Origin: Humidesulfovibrio mexicanus
Lineage (GTDB): Bacteria > Desulfobacterota > Desulfovibrionia > Desulfovibrionales > Desulfovibrionaceae
Reading direction: 5' to 3'
Length of the DNA: 64,000 nt
NCBI RefSeq assembly: GCF_900188225.1
Contig: NZ_FZOC01000004.1
Location: 285,537 to 349,536, forward strand
Shown here: positions 15,589 to 20,018 of the stretch, one piece after another
Numbering within the stretch: the stretch's first letter is position 1
Layout of the letters: each line of letters starts with the position of its first letter
Position numbers and translations under genes: made by a program
The notes under the pieces: model-generated
Database searches by the model: none
The model's input: the letters and a program-made list of their open reading frames with translations, nothing else
Told to the model about the DNA's origin: nothing

Positions 15589-16214
15589 AAGCCCATCTCC
15601 CGCAAGCCCGCCTCGACGCCCTCCTTGGCCAGGGTATCGGCGCTGACCCACTCGCCCTTGCGCTTCACGTACTTGCCGAAATCGAGCAGATTGTCGGAAA
15701 GCGCCTTCTGGGTCTCGTCGTAGTGGTAGCGCGACACCAGCCGCTCGCCCTTCACGTCGATGAGGTAGAAATCCATGACCACCGATGCGGGCTTGCCGCC
15801 ACCCTCCAGCTCCTTCCAGTACAGCACCTGCGGCACCAGCAGGAAGTCCGCGGGCAGGCAGCGGCCAACGCCCAGCCAGTAGGACCAGGCGGACTCGCGC
15901 GCCTTGCCGGAGCGCTCGAAGGTGACGATCTCCTGGCACTGGCGCACGGCGGCCGGGGTGCCGGTGGTGCTGACGCCGTGGGCGCGCAGGGTTTGGCTCA
16001 CGGCGGCGTCCAGGGCGGCCAGCACTTCGGGCTTCACCGGGCGGCCTTCCTCGGGCAGGTAGCCTGCGATGAGCTCCCAATTGTACTTGGGCGCGCTGAA
16101 GGCCGCCACGGCGATGGAGCCCATGGGCCGAAGCTGCGGGGTGACGGGTTTGGGGGCGCAGGACGCCAGGCCCAGGCACAGGGCGACGATGAAGAACAGC
16201 TTGCGTGCGAGCAT
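15585..16214 (-). CDS. Lipoprotein of unknown function between hisB and hisA
   Basis: The 209-residue product starts [20 protein letters not shown], a lipoprotein signal with the lipobox LASC, so it should be lipid-anchored in the envelope. The mature part contains [20 protein letters not shown] and a region resembling proteins that read out envelope or group-specific GNA1162-like functions ([37 protein letters not shown]), but I cannot name a family. The start ATG overlaps the hisB stop by one base (TGATG), and its own stop overlaps the hisA start. It is therefore locked into histidine-gene translation without an obvious role in that pathway. Confidence 0.78.
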
Positions 16215-16801
16215 CAATCCACACTCCCCTTGGTGCTGGGCGCGCCAGTGCGGCTAACCTGAACGGCCTGGCGCAACGCCAAGCCCAGGGCCTTGAAGGC
16301 GGCCTCCAGCAGATGATGGCCGTTTTTCCCGTAGGCGAAGCGGATGTGCAGGTTCATGCCCGCCCGCTGCGCAAGGGACTTGAAGAATTCGCGCCAGACG
16401 TCCTTTTCCTCCCCGGCGATGACGGCGGGCAAAAGAACGTCGTCGTAGACGAGATAGGGCCGGCCGGACAGGTCGACCACCACTTCGGCCAGGGCTTCGT
16501 CCATGGGCACCTTGGCCGAGGCCACGCGGGCGATGCCCGCCTTGTCGCCCAGGGCCTCCGCCAGGGCCTGGCCCAGGGTCAGGCCGATGTCCTCCAGGCT
16601 GTGGTGCGCGTCCACCTCCAGGTCGCCCTTGCAGGAAAGCCGCAAGTCGAACCCGGCCCAGAAGCTCATCAAGGTCAGCATGTGGTCGGCGAAGCCCATG
16701 CCCGTGGCGATGGTGCTCTCTCCCGCGCCAGCCAGGGCGAGTTCGACGCGGATGTCGGTCTCCCTGGTGGTGCGTACGATGAACGCGGTGCGCTCAGCCA
16801 C
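16214..16801 (-). CDS. hisB: Imidazoleglycerol-phosphate dehydratase
   Basis: HisB removes water from imidazole glycerol phosphate in histidine synthesis, using Mn bound by two His clusters. The 195-residue protein has the motifs [36 protein letters not shown] and [16 protein letters not shown]. It is the monofunctional form without the histidinol-phosphatase domain. I chose the GTG at 16801 because AAGGAG lies seven bases before it and the family begins close to the segment [14 protein letters not shown]. It precedes the lipoprotein and hisA genes with overlapping ends. Confidence 0.95.
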
Positions 16802-16920
16802 TGTGTCGCTCCTTATCCCCGGCGCACGCCGGGCTTGCGCTACTCCCATGACCGGGGCCGCGCGGCCTTGTCAAGCCGCCGAGGCCTGAACCGTCGAAAG
16901 AATCCCCCGGGCCGCAGCCC

Positions 16921-18417
16921 CTAGGCCGCCGCCGGAGGCGTCTCGCCCTCCTGCTGCGCGGGCTTGCGCTTCTTGCCGAAGAAGAAGGCCAGCCACACGC
17001 CCACCTCGTACAGCACGCACAGGGGCACGGCCATCATGGTCTGGCTGATGGCGTCCGGCGGGGTGAGGGCCGCCGCAAGGACGAAGGCCGCGAGGATGGC
17101 GTACTTGCGCTTCTTCTTGAGCCCCTCGTGCGTCACCAGGCCCAGGCGGGCCAGGAAGAACAGGAACAGCGGCAGCTCGAACACGATGCCGAAGGCGAAG
17201 AGCAGCTTGAGCACGAAGTCCAGGTACTCGTCCAGCTTTGGCGTGAACACCAGCATGTCGTTGGAGTAGCTGGCGAAGAACTCGAAGCCGAAGGGGAAGA
17301 CCACGAAGTAGCCGAACAGCGCCCCGCAGGTGAAGCACAAAGCCGAGAAAAAGGCGATGGGCATGATCCACTTGCGCTCGTGGGAGTAGAGCCCCGGCGC
17401 GATGAACTGCCAGATCTGATAGAAGATGTACGGGCTGGACACGAACATGCCCGCCACGAAGGCCACCTTCATCTCGGTGAAAAAGGCCTCCGTGGGCAGG
17501 GTGTAGATGAAGTGGCTCTGCTTGATGGCGTCGAGCATGGGCTGCATGAGCACGGTCAAAATCTTCTGGGCGAAGGCGTAGCAGCCCAGGAAGCCCACAA
17601 GAACGGCGATGGCGCTGCGGGTCAGGCGCTTGCGCAGGTCGTTCAGGTGGCCGAAAAGGCTCATGCGCCCGGCCTCCCCCTCGCCCACGGCGTCGTCCCC
17701 CTTGGGCGGCGGCGGCGGCGGAACATCGTCCCCTGCTCCGGCTGCCGGCGGCGCGGGCTCCGCAGCTTCTGCTGGCGGCATGGGCTCAGCGGCCTCGGCT
17801 GGCGGCATGGGCTCCGCAGCTTCCGCTGGCGGCATGGGCTCAGCGGCCTCTGCTGGCGGCATGGGCTCCGCAGCTTCCGCTGGCGGCATGGGCTCAGCGG
17901 CCTCGGCACCGGGGACGGCCTCGGCTGCGGGAGCCTGCGCGGGCTCGACGGGCGCGGCGTCGCCCTGTGCGGGTTCGGCCGGGGCCTCTTCCGCTCCGGC
18001 GCGCTCCACCGGCGGCTGCCCGGGCAGGCCGGAGAGGTCCGGCGCGTCCTGGGGCTCGGCGGCAGACCCGGCCACGGTTTCGTCCGCAGGCTGTGTTTCG
18101 GGCTCGGACGAAGGTTCGGCCGCGGGTTTGGCTTCGCCCCCGGATGCGGTCTCAGTCGAAGGCTGCGTCTCGGGTTCGGCCGCAGGCGTGGACGCGGAAT
18201 CCTTGTTGCCGAACAGGTGCTCCTCGGCCTCGGCCTTGCGGCGCTCGAAGTCGGCCATTTCGGTTTCGCGCTCGATGGTGCGCTTGAACTCGCCGCTCAT
18301 CTGCTTGAATTCGCCGATGGCCTTGCCCACCGACTTCATGAGGTCGGGCAGCTTCTTGGGATCCACCACGAGAATCGCCACAAGGGCGATAAGGAGCATT
18401 TCACCGGTGCCGGGCAT
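16921..18417 (-). CDS. tatBC: TatB-TatC fusion of the twin-arginine translocase
   Basis: One uninterrupted 498-codon frame joins two Tat subunits. Residues 1-70 look like TatA/TatB: a short membrane helix (about 7-18), a Glu at position 6 as in TatB, the PKKLPDL motif (with Asp before the Pro in place of the usual Gly) and an amphipathic helix. Residues 71-250 are a Pro/Ala/Glu-rich linker with six units of AEAAEPMPP (the last AEAAEPAPP). Residues 251-498 are a full TatC with HLNDLRKRL at the start and six membrane segments. Tat moves folded, cofactor-loaded enzymes such as periplasmic hydrogenases. An ATG at 17664 with upstream GGGGGAGG could also start TatC alone. Confidence 0.9.
   Translation of the reverse strand: MPGTGEMLLIALVAILVVDPKKLPDLMKSVGKAIGEFKQMSGEFKRTIERETEMADFERRKAEAEEHLFGNKDSASTPAAEPETQPSTETASGGEAKPAAEPSSEPETQPADETVAGSAAEPQDAPDLSGLPGQPPVERAGAEEAPAEPAQGDAAPVEPAQAPAAEAVPGAEAAEPMPPAEAAEPMPPAEAAEPMPPAEAAEPMPPAEAAEPMPPAEAAEPAPPAAGAGDDVPPPPPPKGDDAVGEGEAGRMSLFGHLNDLRKRLTRSAIAVLVGFLGCYAFAQKILTVLMQPMLDAIKQSHFIYTLPTEAFFTEMKVAFVAGMFVSSPYIFYQIWQFIAPGLYSHERKWIMPIAFFSALCFTCGALFGYFVVFPFGFEFFASYSNDMLVFTPKLDEYLDFVLKLLFAFGIVFELPLFLFFLARLGLVTHEGLKKKRKYAILAAFVLAAALTPPDAISQTMMAVPLCVLYEVGVWLAFFFGKKRKPAQQEGETPPAAA
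17746..17907. repeat. Coding 27-base tandem repeat in tatBC linker
   Basis: Six tandem 27-base units encode residues 171-224 of the fusion. The first five give AEAAEPMPP and the last AEAAEPAPP. Codon choice alternates from unit to unit, so the true repeat is about 54 bases long and present about three times, which suggests a recent two-unit duplication. Copy number could vary between strains without breaking the frame. Confidence 0.9.
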
Positions 18418-18470
18418 AGGCCTTCCTGAGTCTTGTCGTCAGCGGCGGGAGCGCCGTTTCGTCGCCTCTG

Positions 18471-20018
18471 CTACTCCCACTCGATGGTGCTGGGCGGCTT
18501 GCTGGAGATGTCGAAAACCACGCGGTTCACGCCCTTGACCTCGTTGATGATGCGGCTCGACATGCGGGCCAGCACCTCGGAGGGCAGGCGCGACCAGTCG
18601 GCGGTCATGGCGTCGATGCTGTCCACGATGCGCAGGGCGATGACGTGCTCATAGGTGCGGTCGTCGCCCATCACCCCCACGGTCTTAAGGGGCAAAAGCA
18701 CGGCGAAACCCTGCCAGACCTTGCGGTACCAGTCCGTGGCAAGCAGTTCGTGCTGCACGATCTTGTCGGCCTGGCGCAGGATCTCCAGCCGCTCCTCGGT
18801 GATCTCGCCGATGACGCGGATGGCCAGCCCCGGGCCGGGGAAGGGGTGGCGCCAGATGATGTGCTCGGGCATACCCAGTTCGTAGGCGACCTTGCGCACC
18901 TCGTCCTTGAACAGCTCGCGCAGGGGCTCCACCAGCTTCAGGTTCATCTTTTCGGGCAGGCCGCCCACGTTGTGGTGGCTCTTGATGACCGCGCTGGGGC
19001 CCTTGAAGGACACGGACTCGATGACGTCCGGGTACAGGGTGCCCTGGCCCAGGAAGCCGACGCCCTCAATGGCCTTGGCCTCGCGGTCGAAGACCTCGAT
19101 GAAGGTGTAGCCGATGATCTTGCGCTTCTGCTCCGGGTCTTCGACCCCTTTCAATTTGTCGAGGAACTCCTTGCGGGCATCGACGCACTTCACGTTCAGG
19201 TCGAAGTGCTCCTCCAGGAAGGCGATGACCTCCTGACGCTCGCCCATGCGGAGCAGGCCGTTGTCCACGAAGATGCAATACAGGCGCTTGCCGATGGCGC
19301 GGTTCAAAAGCACGGCGGCCACGGTGGAGTCGATGCCGCCGGAGAGGCCGAGGACCACCTTGCCCTCGCCCACCTGCTCGCTCATGGTCTTAATGGAGGA
19401 GTCCACAAAGGAGCTCATGGTCCAGCCGGGCTTGAGGCCCGCGATCTTGAACAGGAAGTTCGACAGGATGCGCTCGCCCTGGTCGGTGTGGGCGACCTCC
19501 GGGTGGAACTGCACGGCGTAGATCTTGCGGGCCGGGTCGCACATGGCGGCGTGCTCCAGGCTGCCGGTCCTGCCGATGCAGGCAAAGCCTGTGGGCAGCT
19601 GGCCCACATGGTCGCCGTGGCTCATCCACACGGTGAGCTTCTCCTTGCCCTCCACCCCGGCGAAAAGCGGGCAGTCGGCAAAGGCCTCGAACTCGGCGCG
19701 GCCGTATTCGCGGTCCTTAGAGCGGGTCACCACGCCATCAAGGGTGTGCGCCAGAATCTGCATTCCGTAGCAGATGCCCAAAATGGGCAGGCCCCAGGAG
19801 AGATATTCCTTGGGCAACGGGGGCGCGCCCTCGTCGTGCACGCTGGAGGGCCCGCCGGAAAGCACAAGCGCGCTGGGGTTCATGGCCCGGATGGCGGCCG
19901 GGTCGCTGGTGCAGGGGTGGATTTCCGAATACACCCCGGCCTCGCGGATGCGCCGCGCGATGAGCTGGGTGACCTGCGACCCGAAATCGATGATGATGAC
20001 CTTGTCCTGCTGCTGCAT
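18471..20018 (-). CDS. guaA: GMP synthase (glutamine-hydrolysing)
   Basis: GuaA aminates XMP to GMP using glutamine and ATP. The 515-residue protein has the class-I amidotransferase domain (about 1-195) with the catalytic Cys in [10 protein letters not shown] and the His in [11 protein letters not shown], the PP-loop ATPase motif [13 protein letters not shown] (about 220) and the C-terminal dimerisation domain ending in the family-typical KPPSTIEWE. It lies 22 bases downstream of guaB, so both GMP-forming steps are in one unit. tatBC follows after 53 bases. Confidence 0.97.

Follow-up and report, generated by a model that had tools for sequence, protein, structure and literature searches.

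The closest described system to the locus reported here is the TatBC receptor of the twin-arginine (Tat) pathway of Escherichia coli, (TatBC)3, seen by cryo-EM (9dzz and 9e01; PMC13323110) as an assembly in which TatB and TatC are two chains. From that work, a structural study of 2026, a working E. coli core of composition TatA1B2C3 has been inferred, in which TatA takes the place of one TatB. TatBC fusions built in the laboratory from the E. coli proteins, with the C-terminus of TatB joined to the N-terminus of TatC in one chain, support transport, but in a tat+ strain they act in part as dominant negatives (PMC5102672, where Bolhuis et al. 2001 is cited for them). Covalent Tat core subunits are also found in haloarchaeal TatC2 (PMC13186574), but there the joining is archaeal and of TatC to TatC. 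Working fusions made in the laboratory are in this sense already known, and what appears to be new is a natural fusion in a bacterial genus; in the literature, mainly that outside subscription papers, a natural TatB-TatC fusion was not found.

The window, that is the whole analysed stretch of 64,000 nucleotides from Humidesulfovibrio mexicanus, carries such a fusion between two genes that we take, by recognition, to be guaA and hisB. The features of the locus are as follows.

18471..20018, minus strand: guaA, upstream neighbour, in conserved synteny
18423..18428, minus strand: ribosome-binding-like CAGGAA ahead of the tatB start, -4.3 kcal/mol
16921..18417, minus strand: fused tatB-tatC gene, a single open frame of 498 codons plus stop
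18208..18417, minus strand: TatB domain, residues 1-70, a block conserved at 0.83 mean pairwise identity in 12 fusions
18367..18408, minus strand: TatB transmembrane helix, residues 4-17, from the structure model
18361..18363, minus strand: codon of Asp19, which replaces the hinge glycine (E. coli G21); D in 12 of 12 fusions
18211..18351, minus strand: TatB amphipathic helix, residues 23-69, from the structure model
17665..18207, minus strand: disordered linker, residues 71-251, net charge about -34, from alignment and model
17742..17907, no strand given: 27/54-bp tandem repeat coding for the linker run (AAEPMPPAE)n
17672..17679, minus strand: GGGGAGGC, resembling a ribosome-binding site, 7 nt upstream of the TatC internal ATG, -10.4 kcal/mol
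17662..17664, minus strand: internal ATG, Met252, a possible start for free TatC
16978..17664, minus strand: TatC domain, residues 252-480, with F338/E347 and T452/Q459 retained
16214..16849, minus strand: hisB, downstream neighbour, in conserved synteny

The frame runs from the ATG at 18417 to the stop at 16921-16923, and the 498-residue product, originally predicted to hold TatB and TatC in one protein, is confirmed exactly in frame, length and coordinates. Both Pfam domains lie in-frame, TatA_B_E (PF02416) at residues 3-51 with 39.7 bits against a cut-off of 21 and TatC (PF00902) at residues 257-465 with 261.1 bits against 25.1, and the protein scores 241.4 bits with TIGR00945 (cut-off 132.7). 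The two domains are detected in all 12 intact fusions of the genus, PF02416 being taken at E 0.001. Between them lie 181 low-complexity residues rich in Ala, Pro and Glu, in agreement with the predicted linker of about 180. Across the 12 fusions linker length ranges between 152 and 290 residues with the frame kept and not a single stop, and mean pairwise identity falls from 0.83 in TatB to 0.24 in the linker, rising to 0.65 in the stretch before TatC and 0.85 in TatC. Preservation of the frame at such variable lengths would be hard to explain unless the whole of it is translated. The tandem repeat within the linker is likely to differ in length between strains.

We consider it very probable that the gene product is a covalent TatB-TatC subunit of the Tat receptor, one uncleaved protein that would accumulate, assemble and work as such. 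TatB has its N-terminus outside and its C-terminus inside, and TatC begins inside. The fusion therefore keeps the normal topology: the TatB helix would span the membrane, the amphipathic helix would lie on the cytoplasmic face, and the disordered acidic linker would cross the cytoplasm to a TatC that starts inside. Three fused chains may then form a receptor of the (TatBC)3 kind, in which Glu6 would hold TatB in the polar cluster of TatC and the signal peptide would bind at F338/E347, with TatA supplied by separate genes. The findings are read most simply as a (TatB-TatC)3 receptor that draws its TatA from other loci. Three observations stand against a covalent receptor, namely a strong internal start, an Asp at the hinge and a score of 56.4 with TIGR01410, whose cut-off is 56.5; moreover, since the E. 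coli fusions are partly dominant negative, fusion may not be without effect.

An AlphaFold2 model built on a 75-row alignment (mean pLDDT 75.6, pTM 0.59) has a helix at residues 4-17, a long helix at 23-69, mostly low-confidence coil and then the TatC bundle, with helices at 254-280, 308-326, 348-382, 395-412, 437-451 and 456-480, whose placement in the membrane is inferred. In Foldseek searches the TatC part matched six TatC entries, from E. coli, Nitratifractor and Myxococcus together with two older TatC crystal structures, all with E below 1e-10. The fold is that of TatC in the E. coli receptor structures 9dzz and 9e01 (E 1.6e-12 and 4.1e-12; PMC13323110), with which the fusion also shares a TatB helix followed by an amphipathic helix, and the residues for the signal peptide and the polar cluster. 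By alignment, F94 and E103 of E. coli TatC, which serve the signal peptide, correspond to F338 and E347, and T208 and Q215 of the polar cluster to T452 and Q459, while M205 is replaced by Ala449. The E. coli complex differs in having two chains and a glycine at position 21, where the fusion is one chain with D19 and a long acidic linker. The laboratory fusions share the order and the single chain, but are artificial with a short junction, whereas the genus fusion is natural, conserved and joined through 152-290 residues. No usable placement of TatB on TatC was obtained from the AlphaFold2 model. The expectation that the fusion would tell which subunits touch is not supported, as the linker is long, mostly low-confidence coil and only 24% identical between species, so that TatB could bind its own TatC or a neighbouring one; in solved complexes each TatB already lies between two TatCs (PMC13323110).

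A 1:1 ratio of TatB to TatC in the complex is plausible, but the internal ATG, with its strong site, could yield free TatC; the two parts would be made in equal amounts only if neither internal initiation nor cleavage occurred. The sequence GGGGAGGC, placed 7 nt upstream of ATG252, reaches -10.4 kcal/mol, stronger than the -4.3 kcal/mol of the gene's own start; about 1% of linker positions match this -10.4 kcal/mol. In this species the gene might accordingly give two products, the whole fusion and free TatC from Met252, and such a mixture would restore fewer TatB than TatC, as in the TatA1B2C3 core inferred for E. coli (PMC13323110). Compared at the same Met with 39 separate tatC genes, the 12 fused genes are also stronger (mean -6.3 against -4.7 kcal/mol, p 0.006), although that p is too small because the rows are related, and purines before ATG252 are partly expected from the conserved E-G residues of the protein motif. 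A strong internal start conserved in the genus was rejected when the 12 fused genes were scored: it is strong in the source species only, the other 11 having -3.3 to -7.0 kcal/mol and mostly a spacing of 11-12 nt. The internal ATG itself is ancestral TatC sequence. On balance we regard the production of both proteins as unlikely, though worth keeping in mind.

It is rather improbable that the whole chain is made and then cut in the linker, leaving ordinary TatB and TatC. Such processing would suit the length, disorder and low conservation of the linker, but by eye its alignment showed no conserved cleavage motif. The run PPPPPPxGDxAV ahead of TatC is conserved in 12 of 12 fusions. To our knowledge it is not a known cleavage site. 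A linker of this kind has precedent in the family, since many separate TatCs of Desulfovibrionales (for example, loci L090 and L095) bear very long, disordered-looking N-terminal extensions.

Taken in isolation, residues 1-70 of the N-terminal domain match the NCBIfam model TIGR01410 (tatB) best, with 56.4 bits, just below the cut-off of 56.5, against 43.8 for tatAE; the whole fused protein scores 53.2 with TIGR01410. The best model is tatAE for the other four TatA/B genes of the genome and for a congener's copy of one of their types. Glu6, originally taken to favour TatB, is present and aligns with E8 of E. coli TatB. Its distance from the hinge position is 13 residues, the spacing also seen in 71 of 71 scorable separate TatBs. 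The hinge position itself is Asp in 12 of 12 fusions and Gly in those 71 separate TatBs, a count in which L165, lacking its start, was left unscored and a few rows duplicate one contig. The inter-helix glycine (G21) has been termed invariant, and sequences lacking it were removed from a co-evolution study (PMC5201420), so that proteins with an Asp hinge like the present fusions would have dropped out of it. Asp in place of this "invariant" glycine in all 12 fusions is a new observation. Of the motifs described in the same source, the TatB X-G-P is absent, with V-D-P in its place, the L-P dipeptide (25-26) is present as L23-P24, invariant in the 12 fusions, and F37, also invariant, corresponds to TatA F39, normally missing from TatB. 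This phenylalanine, together with the ability of TatA to occupy the same TatC site, would suit a domain functioning as TatA, the gene then being a TatA-TatC fusion. However, Phe at the place of F37 is also found in many separate TatBs of Desulfovibrionales, and the best model, Glu6, the L-P dipeptide, the long amphipathic helix and a tatB position beside tatC all fit TatB, while the remaining four genes prefer tatAE; we find a TatA function highly improbable.

The genus was sampled with 15 genomes, the source genome included. Separate genes are not what its close relatives have: the same locus carries an intact fusion in 12 of the 15, and in the other three (G168, G280 and G281) the gene is cut by a contig end with the frame open at the edge. 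Outside the genus separate genes are the rule, which might suggest an assembly or frameshift artefact over truly separate genes, but the intact fusion recurs in 12 genomes assembled separately, with many linker lengths and no stop, which refutes this for the genus and leaves it practically no weight. Because all 12 uncut genes of the genus are fused and the linker varies with the frame kept, the fusion is neither chance nor assembly error.

A search of Desulfovibrionales covered 278 genomes, 273 of them with TatC, and the locus was inspected in 75 outside the genus. There, 69 have separate adjacent tatB and tatC and six lack tatB in the fetched stretch, with no fusion in the 75. These separate pairs, for example in the sister genus (G217, loci L173/L193), belong to the same families and stand at the same guaA-tat-hisB locus, many of their TatCs with long N-terminal extensions like the linker; they differ in having an intervening stop codon, different frames and a glycine hinge. 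In a TatC tree of 87 rows, in which some long branches elsewhere are unsure, the 12 fusions form one clade (100/100) adjoining the sister G217 (99/88). Across the order, guaA and hisB flank most of these genes, fused or separate; where one of the two is absent, the stretch retrieved was often a short one. The fusion arose once, in the ancestor of the genus, in place within the guaA-tatB-tatC-hisB cluster. In 10 of 11 relatives' loci, out of a set of 13, the tatB TGA overlaps the tatC ATG, L043 ending in TAG, and the overlap is found in the sister genus. The origin was probably this overlapping tatB stop and tatC start (GC-ATG-A) brought into one frame, for which a small length change at the overlap could suffice.

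Length of the frame was discarded as a sign of fusion, as TatC frames of Desulfovibrionales often measure 380-660 aa; the long ones read outside the genus had a long N-terminal extension, or a tatC frame that continued through tatB in another phase. Wider samples of genomes, which were small, gave no other fusion in the long frames read. Among 168 Desulfobacterota genomes, at least 160 with TatC, nine long frames outside the order were inspected: in seven, tatB stands as a gene of its own, in one no tatB match turned up, and L186 was rejected, TatB and TatC appearing joined there only across a run of N. In the phylum of Steroidobacter (150 genomes, 147 with TatC) none of 18 long frames (at least 335 aa) is fused, and none of 126 matching plasmid records has 80% of the query at a single site. 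Other peculiarities of separate tatC genes were noted. In L088 and L089 (G179 and G180) the frame opens with about 60 residues that, by eye, resemble a winged-helix DNA-binding domain, before a disordered extension. In L173/L193 (G217), L160 (G220) and others of g32/g33 the first periplasmic region of TatC is longer by about 50 residues, which most relatives lack. In L154, L158, L170, L178 and L180, whose five genomes cluster in the TatC tree, no tatB lies within about 1.5 kb of tatC, which in the first three follows a gene named by eye as secF-like.

Taking into account the bond between TatB and TatC and the lost hinge glycine, it is possible, although we hold it doubtful, that the genus has a re-engineered Tat receptor that changes or bypasses the asymmetry of the TatA1B2C3 core inferred for E. 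coli (PMC13323110). Since a tethered TatB is unable to leave the complex, TatA would have to enter beside it, or a symmetric B3C3 core would work, or free TatC from the internal start would supply the imbalance. With TatB made joined to TatC, the genus is a natural case constraining the exchange of TatA and TatB, making the need for unequal TatB and TatC directly testable, and the fusion offers a natural test of the assembly rules of a machine exporting folded cargo in sulfate-reducing bacteria. A second departure open to test is the change from Gly to Asp at the hinge (12 of 12 fusions, 0 of 71 scorable separate TatBs).

The source genome has a single TatC gene and five TatA/B matches, the fusion included, which makes the fusion its sole gene of TatB type and its sole tatC. 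As originally stated, the window holds no separate tatA, nor any other TatA/B match, and four TatA-like genes were found elsewhere in the genome. Five Tat signal sequence matches in the genome suggest that the pathway has cargo. In the genus the TatA-like paralogues comprise up to four further types: F-G-P is found in two, and the hinge is altered in the other two. The altered hinges, T-G-x-x-K-L-P and F-N-W-R-K-L-P, were seen in L003, L004, L123, L136, L144 and similar loci. The F-N-W type carries a Glu near position 6 and is conceivable as a spare TatB. Two genomes with the fusion and 100% completeness, G172 and G175, have only four TatA/B matches each, without the F-N-W type, and there the fusion is independent of it.
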